IMG/VR virus record: IMGVR_UViG_3300036861_001034
Coordinates: 1-25,396 of that record
Source of the DNA: a virus
Strand: one strand, 5' to 3'
Length of the DNA stretch: 25,396 bases
Shown piece by piece: positions 11,121 to 21,678 of the stretch. Made by a program: the position numbers and the translations under genes. The notes beneath the pieces are model-generated. The model was not told where the DNA came from, ran no database searches, and saw nothing but the letters and a program-made list of their open reading frames with translations. The stretch's first letter is position 1; every line of letters begins with the position of its first letter.

Positions 11121-12197
11121 CTATTTTACTCCGATGACGGGAATCGGCTCAGTCTCTCCCAGTGCGTCGAACGCGGCAGCGGCTTCCTCTGTGACGGTGT
11201 GATACACATAGATCTGTCCGGCAGAATCAGCGGCCAGCGTGTAGAGCGTCTGTCCATCCTCGCCCCGGAGCTGTGGCCCGGCCAATGGGAACGGGAGCGG
11301 CACGTTATAGTTGATGCCTGTCCCGAGCGGGGGCGGCACACTATCGATGCTGAGTTGCCCCATCTCATCAGGGAACAGGTACCATGTGAGCGTCGTCTCA
11401 TCGGAAACCCCCAGCCACGAGGGAGGTTGTCCCACGGTAATGCCCTCAAACGGCGGAATCGGCGGGGGGGCATCGAGACGGGCAATCGCTCCCCGCGTAT
11501 CGATCCAGTAGAACCACCAGGCGCCCGACTGATCCGCCAGAATGAAATATTGTGGCGGGCCGGGAGAGAGTGTCGCGTCCTGCACCGCGCGCGTGAGAAT
11601 GGCCTGGAGGCTGGTGAGAAACGTACTACTGGCGAATCGCATCGGCCAGTCGAACTCATACGTAGCCGTGAGGGTGACACCCAAAGCGAGGGGGTTGTCC
11701 AGCGTGATCCCCCCCGTGGTGTAGTCGATAGTATAGCCGCCGAAAAACATCTGCACGCCATCCTGGTAAAGGATGACACTATCGTAGGTGTTCCCGATGG
11801 GGAATCCAGGACCGACAGGTTTGCGGATTTTCTTGATATATTGAAATTCTTGCGGCCCCGAATCATAAATCTTGAGGAGCTGGTATTGCGTCGTGGCGCC
11901 ATCGCCGATGCCAACAAATTGCTGTGTCCCTTGGTAATCAAGATGCCATTTAAACCGCCAGGATTGGGCTTCCCCGCGCCGCGCATGGACAAAGGCCAAC
12001 AATTGTTGAAGATAGGCCAGCGTGCGCACGCTATAGCGCAAGTCCCCGCGTGGTTTGTCTTCGCGCCATCGACTATTGCGCTGCTCTGCGCCTTCCAAAA
12101 GCGTAACGACATCTGTGGCAAACTCCGGGCCAAACTCTGAGCCAAAACTGAGGGCTGTGGGCAACCTGACGTTTGCAAAGTCCAATGTGGTTGGCAC
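11121..12197 (-). CDS. Second DUF2460 distal-tail paralogue with C-terminal extension
   Basis: The protein has 358 residues from GTG 12197, preceded by GGAAGGGA. Residues of about 5-200 repeat the DUF2460 pattern of the upstream gene: VRLPTALSFGSEFGPEFATDVV, the QQFVGIGDGATTQYQLLKIY block, KPVG, IDYTTGGITL and FDWPMRF. Residues 205-358 are an extra Trp/Pro-rich beta region (YFILADQSGAWWFYW) not expected in the family. DUF2460 proteins form the distal tail ring linking tube and hub. Two adjacent copies suggest duplication and divergence, with this one perhaps forming an outer ring or carrying an adhesion domain. Gaps to its neighbours are only 21 and 4 bases. Confidence 0.85.
   Translation of the reverse strand: MPTTLDFANVRLPTALSFGSEFGPEFATDVVTLLEGAEQRNSRWREDKPRGDLRYSVRTLAYLQQLLAFVHARRGEAQSWRFKWHLDYQGTQQFVGIGDGATTQYQLLKIYDSGPQEFQYIKKIRKPVGPGFPIGNTYDSVILYQDGVQMFFGGYTIDYTTGGITLDNPLALGVTLTATYEFDWPMRFASSTFLTSLQAILTRAVQDATLSPGPPQYFILADQSGAWWFYWIDTRGAIARLDAPPPIPPFEGITVGQPPSWLGVSDETTLTWYLFPDEMGQLSIDSVPPPLGTGINYNVPLPFPLAGPQLRGEDGQTLYTLAADSAGQIYVYHTVTEEAAAAFDALGETEPIPVIGVK
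11893..11924. repeat. 32-bp direct repeat, copy in the second DUF2460 gene
   Basis: Identical over 32 bp to 12592-12623, in the same strand and codon phase. It encodes the QQFVGIGDGAT segment shared by the two DUF2460 proteins. Confidence 0.9.
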
Positions 12198-12218: not shown

Positions 12219-12893
12219 TTAGGCCGCCAATTCTGCTGGGAAATCTACAAAAGGCAACAATTCTACAATAGGGGCTGATTTGGCCGTGCCCCCTACCGCA
12301 GGAGTAGACAAACTCAGGGGCAAGTAATCGGTGTCAAAGCGACAGGGTACGTCAAAAAGAAAAGAGGCTGTAAGCGTCACGCCCACTGGAAGAGGAAACG
12401 CCAGCGTGATACGACCAGTGGTATAGTCCACGCCATAACCGCTCTCTAAGAGCGTCCCATCAAGGTACAGCTTGACCGTATTTTCTGTGGAACCATATGG
12501 CATATCGATGCCAACAGGCTTCGTGATTATTCTGACGTATTGATCAGCTTGGAGCCCGCTATCATAGATTTTGAGGAGTTGATACTGTGTTGTGGCGCCA
12601 TCGCCGATGCCAACAAATTGCTGCGTTGCCACATGGTCTTTGTGGTCAAGGAAACGCCAGCCCATGGCGCGCCCCCGCGACACCCGAAAGAACGCATCCA
12701 GCGCTTGCAGTTGCACTAGCGTCCGGTTGTGATATCGCAGTTCCCCCCGGTGCCGATGCTGGGGCCAGAGCACCGTCCGTGCCTCATGCCCCGAGGAAAA
12801 CGGCACCAACTCGGTGGCGCTCTCAGGGCCGAAGGTCGAACCGAACGCGAGATAAGAAGGCAGGCGCACCTCACGAAATGCAGCGAGAACCAT
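12219..12893 (-). CDS. Distal tail protein, DUF2460 family (GTA g12-like)
   Basis: The protein has 224 residues, close to the family norm of about 200-220. Family signatures: FREVRLPSYLAFGSTFGPESATELV at the start, FFRVSRGRAMGWRFLD (about 70-83), GIGDGATTQYQL (about 94-105), KPVG, VDYTTGRITLAFPLPVGVTLTASFLFDVPCRFDTDYL near the end. The CRFDTD motif is especially typical. It would form the ring that caps the tail tube and meets the hub. It begins 10 bases after the tape measure stop. The gene downstream is a paralogue. The last 30 residues extend beyond the usual end. Confidence 0.9.
   Translation of the reverse strand: MVLAAFREVRLPSYLAFGSTFGPESATELVPFSSGHEARTVLWPQHRHRGELRYHNRTLVQLQALDAFFRVSRGRAMGWRFLDHKDHVATQQFVGIGDGATTQYQLLKIYDSGLQADQYVRIITKPVGIDMPYGSTENTVKLYLDGTLLESGYGVDYTTGRITLAFPLPVGVTLTASFLFDVPCRFDTDYLPLSLSTPAVGGTAKSAPIVELLPFVDFPAELAA
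12592..12623. repeat. 32-bp direct repeat, copy in the first DUF2460 gene
   Basis: Matches 11893-11924 exactly. The rest of the two genes differs much more at DNA level, so this block is either under strong codon constraint or was recently exchanged. Confidence 0.9.
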
Positions 12894-12902
12894 CGGCTTC
12901 CC

Positions 12903-15900
12903 TCACGAATTTCTTGCCCACTGCCGTTGAAACTCTTGCGCCGCCCGGCGCATGACTTGTGACTCTGTGGCCCGGAAGCCCTGCGTGTCCTGGACGCCAT
13001 GGACGTGCATCGTCAGGTTGAGCATGGGACCTGTCCCCATACGGCCCCCATTGGTTCCCTGTGGCATACTCGCCCACATGGCCGGCGACATCGCCGTGTA
13101 GCCGCCGTTCACCAGGGCGCCATCCGCAAAGCGCGGCGTGTGCAGGATGGGAATCTCCACGCCGCTGGGCAGGTGCGCCATCAGGCGTCCGTACTGGTCG
13201 GTCATCGCCGGGATACCGCCACGCTTCAGAGGCACCACGGCTTCCGGGCCGGCTTCCCCGATGAGGGCCAGCGTCGGCCCGTGGACCCGGCCTCCCCGTT
13301 GGAGGCCAGCGATGCCGCCCAGCGCAAACTGCGCGTTGTCCCCCGCCAGGTTAGTGGGGGGATTCTCCACACCCCCGCTGCCACTCAAGGCACTGCCCGC
13401 TGCACTCCCTGCATAGGCGCCGGCAAGACTCCCAATCAACCCCAGAATCTGCCGCCCAATCTGCCGCATGGTATCAATCTGTGGAGGCCGCACATATCCC
13501 ACTGCGCCAGGCACGCGGCTGGCCCAGTTGATATTGGAGGAAGCATCGATGCCGTGGATGAAGATGTGGCCCGTGCCCCGGTCTGTGCGGGCGACAAATT
13601 GATTCTCGTAGTCGCGCTGCTCCGCGTTCACGTCCTGCGCAGGAATCAGGTTGGCTAGGGCTGCGCCCAAACCGCTGCCCACCGCAGCGCCGAAGCCCGC
13701 ATAGCGTGAGCGCTGGAAGCGACGCTCTGCCTCAGCATAGATGGCCTCGAGTGCGGCACGTCGTGCTTCGATGGCGGTACGCGCCTCTGCGGTACTGGCG
13801 GTATCACCCCACCAGTCCACCATGCCGCCCTCGGCCATCGGGACCACCCACTCAGGACCACGCTCCCCGAGGAGGGCAAGCGTGGGGCGTGTCACGAGGC
13901 CTCCCTGTGCGAGTTCGACTGGCTTATCGACAAGCCCTCGCAGGAAGCCCCCTGCACCCGTGTTGTTAAAAAGGCTATCGAGGGCACCCGCCAGCGGCTT
14001 GGTAAAGAGGGTGCGGGTGGTCATCTGTTGCAGGTCACGCAGGATGCCTTGCATCAGACCGGCGAAGTCAAACTTGCCGGTGCTAAAGAAGTCCACGAGG
14101 GCCGATTCGGTCTTTTGCAGGGCGCCAAGCGTCGTCTCTTGGATCTTGACAAAGGTAGACTCATATTTCTCGCCGAACGCTTGCAGGGGGCGCTGGGCGC
14201 CTTCGAGGGCGTGTTGCAGTTGGACGAGGTGGCCTGCCTGGCTACGGATCGCCGCCTCGGTCTTTGGCTCCACCGGAATGCCCCGATCAATCAAGCGCTG
14301 AATCTGCTCCTGCACCAACGCTTCACGCTGTTGTGCCACCAGCGATTGCCCCATGACGCGCAGTCGTGCCTGGAGGGCACTGGTTTGCTGCGTGATGTTC
14401 TGGAGGGCTTCCTCGCCATAGAGACGGTCTTGCAGGTCAAGTAAAATGCGCGCCGCACGGATGGCCCCGGCCTGCTGATCTTCCGGCAGAGCGGTAATCT
14501 GTGGTAATAGCCGCGCTGCGGTTTGGGCGCGGGCACTGGGAATGGCCCGGCCTGCTTCCGTTTGGAGGGTGATGCCGAGCTGTTGCGCCAAGTCGGGCTG
14601 TTGTAACGCCAGATTCTCAATGGTGAGTTGGGCGCGGAGGCTTGCCTGATCCTGGGCAAGGCCAGCGAGAAAGGTTTTTTGCTCGTTTTCGATACGCTGG
14701 CGGATTTGGTTGCGGGCGGACGTGAGCGGGTCTGTCGGGAGAACACCCAGCCCTTGAAGCCGCTCGCGCTCTTGCTGAAACTCCGCCAGTTGCTTGCGCA
14801 TACTAGCCAATTGGACTGTGAAGGCAGCTTCGGCTTTTGGGTCAATGAAATCTAGACGACTCCCCGCTTCCAGACGGGTAAGGAACTCTTGCAGGTAATC
14901 AATATTGCGGGTGAGCGGATCGCGCCAGTCCACTTCCTCACGGGCGGTACGTAAGCCAGCAGTAATCGTCTCAACACGACCAGCGAACAACCCCAGGGCA
15001 ACGTTGGTCTTGGTAAGGTCGCCTTCAGCGTCACGTACCCGTTGGAGAAGAGTGCCACGAATGCCCTCTAGCGCCTGGAGTGGCCCCTCAGTCCCTCCTG
15101 CCCCATAGAAGCGTAGCAAGTTGCCCGCATGCGCCTGATTGAGGCCTGTAGGGTCATTGGCCGCACCGAGAGGCGCATAGACATTGGAAAAGAATCGAAT
15201 GAAGTCTGGGGTATAGCGCCCAGAAGTAGGATCAACCGCTGTGCGTCCTTGTGCTTCAAAGCGCTGCCGATTGGCCGCAATGGTTTGTGCGGCAATGCGG
15301 GCCTGGTCTTCATAGGTGGGTGCTGACACAGACAGGACGCCAAACTCACGCCCTGGTCCGCCATTTTCCGCCCGGCGCAGTGCCGCCAAAAACTCGGGGT
15401 CCACATTCTGGGTTTGCGCGATACGGCGAATGGTCTCTTGCTCACGCTGTGGTAAGGCAGGGAGTGCGCCCGCGCCTGTAGCCCGCAACAACTCAGACAC
15501 ACCACTGCCGGCAATGGTGCTATTCAGCTTCTTAATGGCCTCGTCAATCTTCTCCAGCAAGTCCTGCCAGATTTTCAGCCGCTGTTGCCCGCTTGTTGCC
15601 CCCGCAATCTCGTCGTCAGCCTTACGGAGTTGCTCACTGATACTCTGCACCTGCGTCTGAATCTCTTGGCGTATCTGGCGGACCTGGCGACTGACTTCTT
15701 GCCCCCGTTGGAAGGCTTCGCCAACGTCAGGCGGCTCCCCAAGCCCTGCCACGTCCCGGCGCTGCTCCGCCGCCGTAGTGGTTTGTTGTCGCACCGTGGC
15801 CAGGCGTTGCTCAAGGTCGGCAATACGTGCTGTCGCGGCACGTATATCATCATTCAGAAGAGCCATGACCCCTAACTCAGGAGGTTGCCGTGTCTCAAGC

Positions 15901-17024
15901 TCACGCTTGCGTGCCTCTAACGCCCTGAGATCAGCCCGTGTCTGCTCAAGGTCTGTTCTGGTTTTCCCAAGGGCAGCTTCTTCTTGCGGTGTCGCTGCCA
16001 ACCCACGTTGTGCAAGCGGGCGTGTTTCCTGTTGCCCTATGCTCTTCTGGACGTCCTCTAAGGCTTTTGCAGCGTCTGGCCCAGCCTTAATAATGTCTGC
16101 GAGCTTGTCAACCACACTGCCGAGCCACGTCAGGACACCACTTTTATTCAGGGTGCCACCGACCTCGGTGAACGCATTGCCGAGGCGTGCAAAGGATTCT
16201 GTAAAGGTCCGCACGCCCGCTGCCGCATTCTGGCCGAGTTCCCGCTGGAGTTGGGAGGCAAAGCGAGGCAAGAAGGTCGTGGACAGGACACTGCCAGTCT
16301 CCAGCATCTTGGACAACTCAGCCGTGGTGACACCCATGGCCCGCGCGGCAATCTGAAACGCGCCGGGGAGACGCTCACCGAGTTGTTGGCGCAACTCCTC
16401 ACTGCTGACCGTCCCCTTGGACATAATTTGCTGGACAGCGAGTAACACGCCTTGGATGTCATTCTGGGACAGTTGCAGCGCACGACCTGCGGTGACAATC
16501 GAGGTAAAGATGCGCTGGGTTTCGGCGCCTGCCAAGACTGTCCCCTGACTCGCCGCCTCAAAGCCCTTATAGGCATTCGCCAGCGCGAGCACCGAGAAGC
16601 CCAAGCGGTCAGCGGTCGTGCGCACAAACTCCATACTGCGCTGGGCGCCGGCGCTACTGCCGGTGATAGCCGTAAACGCGGCGTCGAGGCGCTGGAGTTG
16701 TACAGCGCTGTCTACGAGGCCACTCACACCAGACCGCACGAGTTGGAGGCCACTATAGATGCCGGCGAGGGCCAGACCGCCACGCACAATGGAGGCGGTC
16801 ATGCCGCTAAAGGCGGTCTGTGTGGCCTGCACCGACTGTTCCATCTGCCGCAAACCCTGCGTATGCTGGCCGGTGTTCAATTGGAAATCTGGCAGGCGCA
16901 CCTGGGAAAGGCGTTGCTGAAACGCATCCGTCGCGCTCTGTGCTTGCCGCAAGCCCTGGAGCCATTGGCTCACGTCGAGGCTGAGTTGTGATCGCACTAC
17001 GCCTGCATTTGCTTCTTCCGCCAT
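12903..17024 (-). CDS. Tape measure protein with embedded lysozyme-like domain
   Basis: The protein has 1373 residues, the longest gene in the window. Residues 1-80 are coiled. About 80-300 match the tape measure N-terminal domain (AFTAITGSSAGAQRSMEFV; LSQNDIQGVLLAVQQIMSKG; SEELRQQLGERLPGAF). Residues 340-500 are a Gln/Arg/Glu-rich coiled coil. Residues of about 525-645 look like a lysozyme/transglycosylase fold: FLAALRRAENGGPGREFGVL with candidate acid Glu553, then DPTGLNQAHAGNLLRFYG. More coiled coil follows. The C-terminus has two copies of a GG-x-V-x-x-PTLALxGExGPExVVP motif (about 1039-1067 and 1243-1270). The protein sets tail length and is ejected into the cell envelope. The cell-wall domain would help it cross peptidoglycan. 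Its start lies 12 bases after the chaperone fusion stop. Confidence 0.93.
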   Translation of the reverse strand: MAEEANAGVVRSQLSLDVSQWLQGLRQAQSATDAFQQRLSQVRLPDFQLNTGQHTQGLRQMEQSVQATQTAFSGMTASIVRGGLALAGIYSGLQLVRSGVSGLVDSAVQLQRLDAAFTAITGSSAGAQRSMEFVRTTADRLGFSVLALANAYKGFEAASQGTVLAGAETQRIFTSIVTAGRALQLSQNDIQGVLLAVQQIMSKGTVSSEELRQQLGERLPGAFQIAARAMGVTTAELSKMLETGSVLSTTFLPRFASQLQRELGQNAAAGVRTFTESFARLGNAFTEVGGTLNKSGVLTWLGSVVDKLADIIKAGPDAAKALEDVQKSIGQQETRPLAQRGLAATPQEEAALGKTRTDLEQTRADLRALEARKRELETRQPPELGVMALLNDDIRAATARIADLEQRLATVRQQTTTAAEQRRDVAGLGEPPDVGEAFQRGQEVSRQVRQIRQEIQTQVQSISEQLRKADDEIAGATSGQQRLKIWQDLLEKIDEAIKKLNSTIAGSGVSELLRATGAGALPALPQREQETIRRIAQTQNVDPEFLAALRRAENGGPGREFGVLSVSAPTYEDQARIAAQTIAANRQRFEAQGRTAVDPTSGRYTPDFIRFFSNVYAPLGAANDPTGLNQAHAGNLLRFYGAGGTEGPLQALEGIRGTLLQRVRDAEGDLTKTNVALGLFAGRVETITAGLRTAREEVDWRDPLTRNIDYLQEFLTRLEAGSRLDFIDPKAEAAFTVQLASMRKQLAEFQQERERLQGLGVLPTDPLTSARNQIRQRIENEQKTFLAGLAQDQASLRAQLTIENLALQQPDLAQQLGITLQTEAGRAIPSARAQTAARLLPQITALPEDQQAGAIRAARILLDLQDRLYGEEALQNITQQTSALQARLRVMGQSLVAQQREALVQEQIQRLIDRGIPVEPKTEAAIRSQAGHLVQLQHALEGAQRPLQAFGEKYESTFVKIQETTLGALQKTESALVDFFSTGKFDFAGLMQGILRDLQQMTTRTLFTKPLAGALDSLFNNTGAGGFLRGLVDKPVELAQGGLVTRPTLALLGERGPEWVVPMAEGGMVDWWGDTASTAEARTAIEARRAALEAIYAEAERRFQRSRYAGFGAAVGSGLGAALANLIPAQDVNAEQRDYENQFVARTDRGTGHIFIHGIDASSNINWASRVPGAVGYVRPPQIDTMRQIGRQILGLIGSLAGAYAGSAAGSALSGSGGVENPPTNLAGDNAQFALGGIAGLQRGGRVHGPTLALIGEAGPEAVVPLKRGGIPAMTDQYGRLMAHLPSGVEIPILHTPRFADGALVNGGYTAMSPAMWASMPQGTNGGRMGTGPMLNLTMHVHGVQDTQGFRATESQVMRRAAQEFQRQWARNS

Positions 17025-17036
17025 CGTCTCGTCTCG

Positions 17037-18217
17037 CTATGCCTTGTCGTGCTTCTTGGCCTTTTTCCGCTGCTTCTTCGTTTGCAGCTCGGCGGCGTCC
17101 TTGCCATAAACCGTCGCCGTCATCGCCCGGAGCATCGTAATTTCCGACCATGCCTGCGTCTCAGCGGGGGACAGTTGCTCAGAGGAAGGGTGCGTATGCT
17201 TAGTGTCTCTAGGTGTCACTCGTGACCACTGATGAATCGGGAAATCCTCCAGGGTAAATGACTCAGGCTTTTTCTTATGATCTCGGTTGATTTCCGCAAA
17301 CATCCACATGATGGCCTGCGCACGGCGGTCTGCGCGGGCCTCGCGTTCTTGCCACACCGTGATGAGCGCGTCATACTCACGCCAGGTCAGTCCCCAAAAT
17401 TCTGTGTCCGTTAACCCGAAGTCGAGGCGAGCGCGTCCCCAGAGGGCGCGCCAGTCAAGTCCGGGGGGCTCGCAGGGCGCGTCTCCTCTGTGGGCGGCTG
17501 CTCCACGGCCTGCGGTGGATGTGCCGCAATCCAGGCGTCGTTTACGAGTCGCACGACCGGAAAAATCTGTAAGAACGGAATCGCCCGTCCCACCTGTTCT
17601 AAGGTCAAGGGTGGCGGGGCGAGTGGCGTCCGCAAGCCGTTACGGATCAAGACCAGCAAGTGCGTGGCATGGAGATAATCGGCGATTAAATCCGCAATCT
17701 GGGTGCTTTCTGGCAGTAATTCCAAGAGTTGTTCATATTCGCGGGCAGCAAAATATTCTGCCGCAAAATTCAGGCGATACCGATAGGGCTTATTGAGCGT
17801 GAGCGTGATGCCCTCTTGGAAAGGCAGCGCCTCAGAGATTGCAGGCACGAGAGAGGCTGACACCTGTGCCGCTTGCCCTTCCTTGGCAATGACCTCATCC
17901 AACAAGCGATAATCAAACCAAGCTGCCACCTCCTCAAAGGTCACGAGATCATCAAAGTGTTTAAGACCATACAGGACCCACAAGATCAGTTTGGTAATCG
18001 GAATACTGGCATAGGGGTCCAGCAACAGCGGGCGCAAAAACGACTCCGCTCCTTGCTTGAGTCCTTGGCGCCGCTCCCACTCCCGCTCAGCCTGGTATAC
18101 CGTCCAGAGATTGAGGGAGATACGGCGGGGCTTATCAAGGTCGATGAGCACGCCTGTGCTGCCAGATGGACCTGTTGGCGCTCCTACAACTCCATTTTCA
18201 TAGCCTTGCTCGACCAC
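17037..18217 (-). CDS. Tail assembly chaperone, long form (predicted -1 frameshift fusion, lambda GT-like)
   Basis: Predicted product of 393 residues: 252 codons from GTG 18217 to the slippery site at 17462-17468, then 141 codons in the -1 frame to the TAG at 17037. The second frame encodes a clear protein well upstream of its first usable start (GTG 17357). LDWRALWGRARLDFGL, FWGLTWREYDALI and ADRRAQAIMWMFAEINRD resemble the second-frame tail chaperones typified by GTA g10.1 (LGLxxxxFWxLTxRE pattern). No ATG, GTG or TTG precedes that stretch in its frame, so it needs a frameshift from the upstream gene. The C-terminus is Lys-rich (KKQRKKAKKHDKA). In lambda, G and GT chaperones bind the tape measure and recruit tube protein. 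The gene position, between tube and tape measure genes, is the same here. Confidence 0.82.
17411..18217 (-). CDS. Tail assembly chaperone, short form (lambda G-like)
   Basis: The zero-frame product has 268 residues, ending at TAA 17411-17413. GTG 18217 is chosen because AGAAAGGA lies six bases upstream. An in-frame ATG at 18355 would overlap the previous gene and read through a strong hairpin. Two similar blocks are visible: DLDKPRRISLNLWTVYQAEREW (about 26-47) followed by LWVLYGLKHF, and TLNKPYRYRLNFAAEYFAAREY (about 139-160) followed by LLVLIRNGLR. This suggests an internal duplication of a GTA g10-like chaperone domain. The end (PPQAVEQPPTEETRPASPP) is a disordered linker just before the slippery site, as expected where two chaperone domains are joined by frameshifting. 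Confidence 0.78.
   Translation of the reverse strand: MVEQGYENGVVGAPTGPSGSTGVLIDLDKPRRISLNLWTVYQAEREWERRQGLKQGAESFLRPLLLDPYASIPITKLILWVLYGLKHFDDLVTFEEVAAWFDYRLLDEVIAKEGQAAQVSASLVPAISEALPFQEGITLTLNKPYRYRLNFAAEYFAAREYEQLLELLPESTQIADLIADYLHATHLLVLIRNGLRTPLAPPPLTLEQVGRAIPFLQIFPVVRLVNDAWIAAHPPQAVEQPPTEETRPASPPDLTGAPSGDALASTSG
17431..17451 (-). promoter_or_regulatory. Frameshift-stimulating hairpin
   Basis: On the minus strand, GCGCGCCC pairs with GGG-A-CGCGC (8 bp, one bulged A, TCTG loop). It begins 10 nt after the slippery heptamer. A GC-rich stem at this distance is the usual stimulator of -1 frameshifting. Confidence 0.6.
17462..17468 (-). promoter_or_regulatory. Slippery heptamer C CCC CCG (-1 frameshift site)
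   Basis: On the minus strand the zero frame reads AGC CCC CCG GAC. Slipping back one base gives CCC CCC GGA CTT GAC TGG, which enters exactly the frame of the conserved second chaperone domain. It fits the X XXY YYZ rule with full re-pairing in the P site and a wobble change only in the A site. Confidence 0.78.
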
Positions 18218-19143: not shown

Positions 19144-19581
19144 TCAGCTCCAGGTACTATACACTGGTGCCCCACTCGGCCTGAGTCGTAACGTGTGACT
19201 CGCAATGGCATTCGCATCGTAGGTATGCGAATGTTCGAGCACCTTTGCTGTGATCACCATTTGCCAGTTCGGGGTCGTTTGCGGCCAGCGGATGCGCCAC
19301 TGGCGGGCCTCGCCACTCGCATAGATGGTGGCGATGGTCTGATGGGAGGCTTTATGCGGGAGCCAGTTGCCTCCGAGGTTTATTTGGAAGTCCTTAAAAC
19401 CGGACACGAACTCCCGGTAGGCTCCGACCGTGTCATGGTTCGAAGCGTCCAGTTCTTCCGCCCGGTCGGTGTCATTCGAGATGCGGAGTTCTTCGACCAG
19501 GTTGTAGTCGTTGTCTACGGAGCCACTGGCAAGATCGCTGACTTGAATAATGGTGCCCTGGCCCTTCCAGGCTTCGGTCAT
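19144..19581 (-). CDS. Major tail tube protein
   Basis: The protein has 145 residues, typical for siphovirus and GTA tube proteins. TAGGAG lies 10 bases before ATG 19581. Features of the tube fold: IIQVSDLASG near the start, EELDASNHDTVGAYREFVSGFKDF (about 42-65, the T-H-x-D-x-x-x-x-REFxxGLxD-type loop), QWRIRWP in the middle and LRLRPSGAPVY at the end. It would polymerise around the tape measure to form the tail tube. It lies upstream of the chaperone and tape measure genes, as expected. The gap to the next tail gene is filled by the truncated HNH gene. Confidence 0.88.
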   Translation of the reverse strand: MTEAWKGQGTIIQVSDLASGSVDNDYNLVEELRISNDTDRAEELDASNHDTVGAYREFVSGFKDFQINLGGNWLPHKASHQTIATIYASGEARQWRIRWPQTTPNWQMVITAKVLEHSHTYDANAIASHTLRLRPSGAPVYSTWS

Positions 19582-19806: not shown

Positions 19807-20097
19807 ATGAAGCAAGCCACCAGTATGCGCCTGAGCATCGAAGCTAAGCGACTTTTAGCATTGTTGGCGAGCAAAATGAGTATCAGCCAAACAGCCGTCG
19901 TTGAATTAGCTATCCGCGAAAAGGCGAAAAAGGAGCGCGTCAACGCTATAGAACAGACACTGCCTATCGACAGAAAAGAATCAAGCAACAAAAAATTAGA
20001 AACGCAGCAAAGCCCGACCATGGCATTGGTCGCCTGTTGGCCTATATCGCTCAACAACCAGAAGGTTGGCAAGAAGAAGCTAAGCAACGATGGGTGA
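19807..20097 (+). CDS. Ribbon-helix-helix reading frame (possible front part of HNH protein)
   Basis: From ATG 19807 (MKQATSMRL) the first 40 residues read as an RHH/Arc-type DNA-binding unit: MRLSIEAKRLLALLASKM, then SISQTAVVELAIREKAKK. An ATG 12 bases earlier has AAGG directly against it, so 19807 is preferred. After about residue 42 the frame looks non-natural (NAIEQTLPIDRKES, ending KKLSNDG), whereas the -1 frame starts to look like HNH protein (ARQRYRTDTAYRQKR). The real product is probably either a short RHH protein or an RHH-HNH fusion reached by a -1 shift near GCG AAA AAG (19924-19932). The DNA is AT-rich relative to the tail genes. Confidence 0.5.
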   Translation: MKQATSMRLSIEAKRLLALLASKMSISQTAVVELAIREKAKKERVNAIEQTLPIDRKESSNKKLETQQSPTMALVACWPISLNNQKVGKKKLSNDG

Positions 20098-20459
20098 AAG
20101 AACATCCTGTGGAATGGAGCGCCAAGAGCCAACGTTATGCTGCCCGCAAAAGAGGTGCACCTATTGTGGAAAATATCGACCTGTTGACACTGGCCGAGCG
20201 TGATAATTGGACTTGTCATTTGTGCCATAAACGTGTTACTCGTCAAACATGGTCTATGGATCATCTTCTCCCACTGAGCCATGGCGGCTCTCATACGTGG
20301 GACAATGTTGCCTTGGCCCATCGTCGTTGTAACTCTAAGCGTGGTCCAGGGAGACAACCTGCCCAACTCTTGCTAGGCGTCATTGCTCGTCCGCCTTCGT
20401 TTTCTGAGCCAAACTTCAATCGCTCACTGCCCACGCCCGCTCCTCCATCGCCGCCTTGA
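20037..20459 (+). CDS. HNH endonuclease, frame-split or lacking a normal start
   Basis: From TTG 20037 the protein has 140 residues. The frame is open back to 19905 with no ATG or GTG. That upstream part (ARQRYRTDTAYRQKRIKQQK) and AKSQRYAARKRGA have the basic, Tyr/Arg-rich look of the region before the nuclease core in this HNH type, so the native protein begins further up. The core is RDNWTCHLCHKRV (first Cys pair), MDHLLPLSHGGSHTWDN (catalytic DH, His and Asn) and AHRRCNSKRG (second Cys region). All key residues are present. It is a presumed homing nuclease. Its last 44 bases overlap the 3' end of the convergent glycosyltransferase gene. The C-terminus (SLPTPAPPSPP) is antisense to it and may be acquired sequence. 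Confidence 0.75.
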   Translation: MAYIAQQPEGWQEEAKQRWVKEHPVEWSAKSQRYAARKRGAPIVENIDLLTLAERDNWTCHLCHKRVTRQTWSMDHLLPLSHGGSHTWDNVALAHRRCNSKRGPGRQPAQLLLGVIARPPSFSEPNFNRSLPTPAPPSPP

Positions 20460-21678
20460 GATACGTCGCCATCTGCGCGGCGACAGACTCCCACCGAAAC
20501 CGCTCGTCCTGCACCAGCGCAAGCCCGGCCTCTCGCAAGCGCTGCCGCTCCCCCGCATCCCGGAGCATCCGGTTGAGGGTCTGCGCCAGCGTCTCAGGAT
20601 GGACGAGCGCACCCATCGTGCCCGTTACGGGATCCACAAGCGGCAGACAGCACGGGAGATGGCCTACGGTCGCTGCTCCCGTAGCGTCCCGATGCCAGTC
20701 CGCACAAAGCCCCTGCTGGGGGACAAGCACGGGCACGCCGCATGCCTGGGCTTCCAGGGCACCACACCCCCACCCAGCATCGACCGCCAGCGACAGCGAC
20801 ACATCCCAGGCGCTATAGAGCCACGAGAGTTCCTCGTCGCTCAGCGCTCCTTGATAGGCGGCAAGGTGCGCCGGGGGCATAAGCAGATTGCCTTCTACCT
20901 CCAGATGCCGTGCGAGTTGCTGGAGATCCCATCCCGCACCAGGGTAGGGCCGCTCCCACGGCTCACCCTGATTAGTGCATTGCAGCCAGAGATACGCCGT
21001 GTCTTGCAATCCCTGCGCATGCACCCAGGACGCGAAGCCAAGTACCGCGATATCAAGGCGTTGACGTAGCATGTTCTTGCCGATATTGCCCACCATCCAG
21101 ATATCCGGCGTGGCCAGGGCCTCCATCCCAAAGTGCGCTCGTGCGTCGTCTCGGGGGCGGGGCGTAAACAGCCCCAGGTCCACCCCCGGTGCCAATACGG
21201 TCAGTGGCCCTTCATAGCCATCCCGGCGCAATTGCTGGGCACCCCACGGCGTGGGCGTGAGCACCAGCGTGCACTCATTGAGATACACGGTGTCCGGTGA
21301 GCCCATCCCCCGCACGGGCACATAGGCCACGACAGGCGGGCGTTCCATCTGCGGCCAACCCGGCAATTTGCCATGCGCCATCAGATACTGCCGCGCCACG
21401 CCGACATCGCAAATGAGTAACACGCAGTTCGGCTCCAGATGCGTCACCAGTGCCTGGTAGCGGTACACGCCATAGAGATCATCCGGGCCGGCCAAATCTG
21501 CCCGGTAGACGGTATAGGGATATGGCGACGGATACGGCGTGTCCCCGGTCCAGTGCGCGGCGCACAGGTGAATGTCCCAGGCATCAGCGAGGTGTGCGAG
21601 CACGCTACTCGTCACACGAGCAGTGCCCGAGGGGATGCTGAGTTCACCAAAGACCAGAAGGCGGGGTTTCTGGCTCAT
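20416..21678 (-). CDS. GT-B fold glycosyltransferase (family 4-like)
   Basis: The protein has 420 residues. The N-terminal Rossmann half starts RLLVFGELSIPSGTARV. The C-terminal half has LAPGVDLGLFTP (about 162-173), WMVGNIGKN (194-202) and the nucleotide-sugar loop GWGCGALEAQACGVPVLVP (302-320). In the GT4 EX7E motif the second Glu is present (E309), but the first position is Ala301, with Asp300 beside it. Acceptor and donor cannot be read from the sequence. In a phage it could modify host surface glycans (receptor masking), a virion protein or DNA. Its ATG overlaps the stop of the upstream HTH gene by ATGA, so the two are translationally coupled. There is no signal peptide, so it acts in the cytoplasm. 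Confidence 0.85.
   Translation of the reverse strand: MSQKPRLLVFGELSIPSGTARVTSSVLAHLADAWDIHLCAAHWTGDTPYPSPYPYTVYRADLAGPDDLYGVYRYQALVTHLEPNCVLLICDVGVARQYLMAHGKLPGWPQMERPPVVAYVPVRGMGSPDTVYLNECTLVLTPTPWGAQQLRRDGYEGPLTVLAPGVDLGLFTPRPRDDARAHFGMEALATPDIWMVGNIGKNMLRQRLDIAVLGFASWVHAQGLQDTAYLWLQCTNQGEPWERPYPGAGWDLQQLARHLEVEGNLLMPPAHLAAYQGALSDEELSWLYSAWDVSLSLAVDAGWGCGALEAQACGVPVLVPQQGLCADWHRDATGAATVGHLPCCLPLVDPVTGTMGALVHPETLAQTLNRMLRDAGERQRLREAGLALVQDERFRWESVAAQMATYLKAAMEERAWAVSD

Follow-up and report, generated by a model that had tools for sequence, protein, structure and literature searches.

Slippage of the ribosome into the -1 frame to make a long tail-assembly chaperone is well known in phages. 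Among the closest described systems is that of lambda, where G attaches to the tape measure protein and T to the tube protein, and where the proportion of the products matters (PMC5009743); the lambda-type G/GT -1 frameshift is attributed to Xu, Hendrix and Duda 2004, as cited in PMC5009743 and PMC10885494. Another is the g10/g10.1 pair of gene transfer agents (GTAs; PF11836/PF09550), in which g10.1 has its own ATG or GTG start and the junction carries no slippery run. For the slip site itself there is an experimental precedent: C_CC.C_CC.G slips in E. coli at >0.10% when no stimulator is present (Sharma et al. 2014, PMC4066793), with CCN codons on average shifting less well than AAN and UUN codons (same source). 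A run of six identical bases also forms the 'six' class of PRFect, described in PMC10885494 as a -1 site of phage tail chaperone genes.

The stretch analyzed here, referred to as the window, is a virus record of 25,396 bases whose minus strand carries a siphovirus tail module. The genes at issue are:

19144-19581, minus strand: major tail (tube) protein gene, upstream of G (phrog_158, E 3.4e-9; PF16461, E 9.4e-5)
17411-18217, minus strand: G gene, putative tail assembly chaperone, 0 frame; 268-aa ORF with a GTG start at 18217, picked by inspection and preceded by AAAGGA
17037-17462, minus strand: predicted T domain, -1 frame, 141 aa; aligns with relatives, with 18 homologues by iterative HMM
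12903-17024, minus strand: tape measure protein gene, 1373 aa, directly downstream of T (PF20155, E 1.5e-28; PF09718, E 2.5e-10)

The minus-strand order is tail tube, G (18217-17411), T (to 17037) and tape measure (17024-12903), which places G and T, two ORFs that overlap by 226 nt, in the lambda-type position between the tube and tape measure genes. The window also encodes two DUF2460 proteins, a BR0599/Gp84 protein and a megatron-like protein; the DUF2460 genes are neighbors (11121-12197 and 12219-12893, minus strand) and apparently a tandem duplication. Upstream of the tail genes, but on the other strand, is an HNH endonuclease gene (20037-20459, plus strand), and a glycosyltransferase-like gene (20416-21678, minus strand) adjoins the tail module; the 25,396-base contig yielded no identifiable head genes.

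The locus resembles lambda-type G/GT in its position between tube and tape measure genes, in its -1 overlap, in an X XXY YYZ heptamer close to where G ends, and in a T of the Phage_tail_T family; it differs in that the heptamer is C CCC CCG where lambda has GGGAAAG, and in that G is about twice the usual length, with two domains. With the GTA pair it shares both domain families in the same order, as seen through its relatives, and GTA-type tail genes downstream (DUF2460, BR0599, phiJL001 Gp84, megatron-like); unlike g10.1, however, the window T has no start codon before residue 38, and it has an additional Phage_tail_T part. The heptamer is identical to the C_CC.C_CC.G of Sharma et al. 2014 (PMC4066793), but that was an E. 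coli reporter; the literature searched gave no example of C_CC.C_CC.G used naturally at a tail chaperone gene. We consider it likely that this is a lambda-type G/GT pair in which a -1 slip at C CCC CCG gives GT, because the T reading has homologues, relatives keep the -1 layout, and codon usage changes frame at the heptamer. The initial annotation, which had predicted from the letters that a -1 frameshift joins tail-chaperone domains, was right in substance; the locus is a variant of a known system and not a new system.

The elements around the proposed slip site are arranged on the minus strand as ...AGAGGAG-ACGCGCCCTGCGAG-C CCC CCG-GACTTGACTG-GCGCGCCCTCTGGGGACGCGC..., and comprise:

17483-17489, minus strand: Shine-Dalgarno-like AGAGGAG, a possible stimulator, 14 nt before the heptamer
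17462-17468, minus strand: candidate slippery heptamer C CCC CCG, in phase near the 3' end of G (G-frame codons AGC CCC CCG GAC)
17431-17451, minus strand: hairpin, possibly a weak stimulator; 8 bp, one bulged A, 4-nt loop, -13.2 kcal/mol
17411-17461, minus strand: unshifted tail of G after the heptamer; 16 codons in the 0 frame (DLTGAPSGDALASTSG), then TAA

Heptamer, 10-nt spacer and 8-bp hairpin all lie where the initial annotation had placed them, apart from the one bulge in the stem, which a terminal G-U pair lengthens by one. C CCC CCG is the sole in-phase X XXY YYZ of the 226-nt overlap. At least one in-phase heptamer nevertheless occurs in 50% of codon shuffles of the whole overlap and in 29% of those of the 41 junction codons, the expectation under the window's general codon usage is 16%, and six-C runs are common in the window; we therefore rejected the presence of a heptamer, expected by chance in 16-50% of comparable stretches, as evidence in its own right. 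The hairpin, offered by the initial annotation as a supporting element, proved weak evidence. Its folding energy has a z of -1.3 over 51 nt (27/200 shuffles fold as well), -1.9 over a 33-nt segment chosen around the hairpin and +0.5 over 121 nt, which is not unusual for this GC-rich region; hairpins meeting published rules follow 52% of random in-frame positions; and a hairpin of the kind set by the stimulator rule of PMC4066793 (4-10 nt after the motif, starting with a G-C pair) does not follow 17462-17468. With no excess over shuffles or random positions, it too was rejected as evidence for frameshifting. The Shine-Dalgarno-like sequence (AGGA/GGAG) falls inside the 6-17 nt range of PMC4066793, as do matches at 18.5% of random in-frame positions. 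Heptamer, hairpin and Shine-Dalgarno-like sequence are thus each common by chance and not individually significant, and the case for frameshifting rests on comparison rather than on signal elements taken by themselves.

What goes beyond chance is the coincidence at this point of T homology that starts exactly after the heptamer, a change in codon usage, and the layout found in relatives. Using codon usage trained on the window's own genes, the log-odds over 17500-17469 are +1.1 for the G frame and -5.0 for the T frame, and over 17461-17360 they are -13.5 and +7.3, respectively; codon usage switches from the G frame to the T frame at the heptamer. The open stretch of the -1 frame spans 17642-17037, and its first ATG, GTG or TTG is the GTG at 17357, residue 38 of the T reading, which falls 3' of the conserved GLDW...FWGLT block; the conserved T domain (GLDWRALW..FWGLT) begins right after the heptamer, bearing out the earlier claim of a chaperone-like domain ahead of any start codon. 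The window T matches PF06223 (Phage_tail_T) at E 7.6e-5 over residues 28-90 and PF09550 (TAC_6, GTA g10.1) at E 0.07 over residues 4-48, both below the curated cut-offs. It aligns along its length with the T of relatives, four of four of which exceed the Pfam cut-off for Phage_tail_T and three of four that for TAC_6 among those tested; these matches argue that the window's -1 ORF encodes a genuine T domain. A T structure predicted without an alignment was weak (pLDDT 62, with the first 40 residues at about 79-92), and a PDB search using the T alignment gave matches at chance level only.

Relatives came from tape-measure-based searches and a DNA signature of the T domain, where direct searches of viral contigs and phage records with G, T or the tail tube protein found nothing closely related, and neither G nor T had a sequence match among 50,697 phage records. 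An alignment-based search gave 19 T relatives, and for 17 of these the T frame is -1 relative to a G-like ORF; of the 18 homologues from the iterative HMM search, 15 are likewise -1 relative to an upstream ORF and have a heptamer. Ten of the 19 have an in-phase X XXY YYZ, six of the ten beginning CCC (GGGAAAC, AAAAAAC, AAATTTT, AAACCCT, CCCTTTA twice, CCCTTTC, CCCTTTG, CCCAAAA and CCCAAAC). The closest relative (L215) has GGGAAAC 5 nt before GLDW, and its T matches the T proteins of HK022 and HK140. Some entries coincide: L296 is the same contig as L215 and L314 the same as L244, and the sequence of L312 is that of L142. In L142, L244, L298, L304 and L313, T lies in the -1 frame of G and the overlap has no X XXY YYZ heptamer. 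L306 and L311 carry an in-phase GGGGGAA near the junction, the 'fivetwo' motif reported by PRFect for SEA-PHAGES genomes.

Gathering loci through the conserved tape measure protein gave 131 non-redundant loci with a -1 pair, the window included. In the last 90 nt of their overlaps, 80 heptamers are in phase, against 22 and 17 in the other two phases; together with the 17 of 19 T relatives, this count supports the frameshift. An all-C heptamer occurs in the window only among these 80, and neither the 19 T relatives nor the 131 loci include another C-run slip site, other heptamers being found at the same place. The comparison across related phages that the initial annotation had proposed therefore finds the G/T -1 layout kept but the C-run heptamer in no relative.

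The T-domain signature, chosen independently of the slip site, retrieved 80 viral loci (L177-L256), 73 of which are GTA-type, with an ATG, GTG or TTG no more than 12 codons upstream of the GxDW..FWxLT domain; this start often overlaps the g10 stop, and the junction has no slippery run. Six others (L190, L196, L215, L228, L232 and L236) have no start before the T domain and carry AAAAAAC, AAAAAAG or GGGAAAC. Against PF11836 (GTA-gp10) the G of one relative scores below cut-off, and against PF09550 the T of relatives scores above it, so that the earlier description of the partners as GTA g10/g10.1-like holds at the family level. The initial annotation had also held that homologues starting T from their own codon, with no conserved slippery run, would speak against its reading; the 73 GTA-type loci are of this kind, but in the closer phage relatives, as in the window, no start precedes the domain.

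Among the alternatives, the one that survives best, though we consider it unlikely, is a real frameshift at a different site or by different means: either only the P-site tRNA slips, during a Pro-Pro-Asp pause, or RNA polymerase slips on the C run. The -1 layouts without a heptamer in L142, L244 and others are consistent with it. Against it, the overlap offers no in-phase X XXY YYZ candidate besides C CCC CCG, and six Cs are short for polymerase slippage, which counts against that variant in particular. The site reads as PPD in the 0 frame and as PPG after a -1 shift, and both motifs cause pauses that EF-P relieves (PMC4140641), which favors a pause-driven slip.

An error in sequencing or assembly, or a recent indel, in the C6 run seems to us quite improbable. 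Homopolymers are error-prone, the sequence is an IMG/VR virus record, and a C7 run would make G and T one ORF encoding the identical fusion protein (SPPGLDW); yet independent contigs keep the G/T -1 relation at the same place (17/19 relatives and 131 tape-measure loci), and no other long gene of the window is broken. That T is translated apart from G, by reinitiation or from an internal start (the apparent situation of g10.1 in GTAs), is very improbable here, the 73 own-start loci notwithstanding: close phage relatives likewise lack a start before the domain, inspection of the window found no CTG or ATH codon upstream of the GLDW block, and with residue 38 as the first start the own-start model was rejected for the window, although it holds for GTAs.

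The initial annotation spoke of two joined domains; chaperone domains do appear to be fused, but there are three, since G holds two tandem copies:

17858-18145, minus strand: predicted G domain copy 1 (HMM of relatives' G, i-E 4.3e-6 in a 3-sequence search and 1.9e-4 in a 131-ORF search)
17477-17812, minus strand: predicted G domain copy 2 (same HMM, i-E 6.8e-6 and 3.0e-4, respectively)

The HMM, built from the G ORFs of 17 relatives (mostly 100-190 aa, or one copy plus a tail), matches the window G twice, at ORF residues 71-166 and 182-293, and both matches are kept in the 131-ORF search. The two copies align with each other at a score of 59, compared with 27 +/- 4.9 for shuffles, of which 0/2000 reach 59. 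By sequence, the window G appears to be a tandem duplication of the chaperone domain, its relatives appearing to be single-copy. The whole G gene had no match in Pfam, PHROG or NCBIfam, nor did either half in Pfam, and a G structure predicted without an alignment was useless (pLDDT 38).

Returning to the lambda-type G/GT reading, we infer that slippage occurs, that it occurs at C CCC CCG and at a useful rate, and that the products act as chaperones; the exact slip site is placed only by inference because the C run was seen in no relative and there is a small chance that it is one base too short. Most ribosomes would stay in frame and make G of 268 aa, stopping at 17411, 16 codons past the heptamer. 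A minority would slip one base back, the prolyl-tRNA of the P site (on CCC) and that of the A site (on CCG) re-pairing to CCC CCC, and would then read GGA CTT GAC TGG to give a GT of 252 + 141 = 393 aa. By analogy with lambda, G would coat the tape measure protein, while GT would recruit the tail tube protein through its T part, with the G:GT ratio set by the frequency of slippage. A role for a Pro-Pro pause at the slip site is only an idea; the bolder version, in which this is a natural all-proline -1 signal driven by slow Pro-Pro decoding and not by RNA structure, GT is EF-P-dependent and G is a fused tandem dimer, we regard as doubtful.

The locus is unusual in its all-C slip site and its tandem-duplicated G domain, as is the own-start T domain in gene transfer agents. 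If the reading is correct, the natural range of G/GT slip sites would extend to an all-C heptamer, and a 393-aa GT product that gene callers would miss could be annotated. With its G domain doubled, the locus also poses a testable question, that of chaperone stoichiometry on the tape measure protein. One T domain would have two modes of expression: fused through a -1 shift in phages, and started independently in gene transfer agents.
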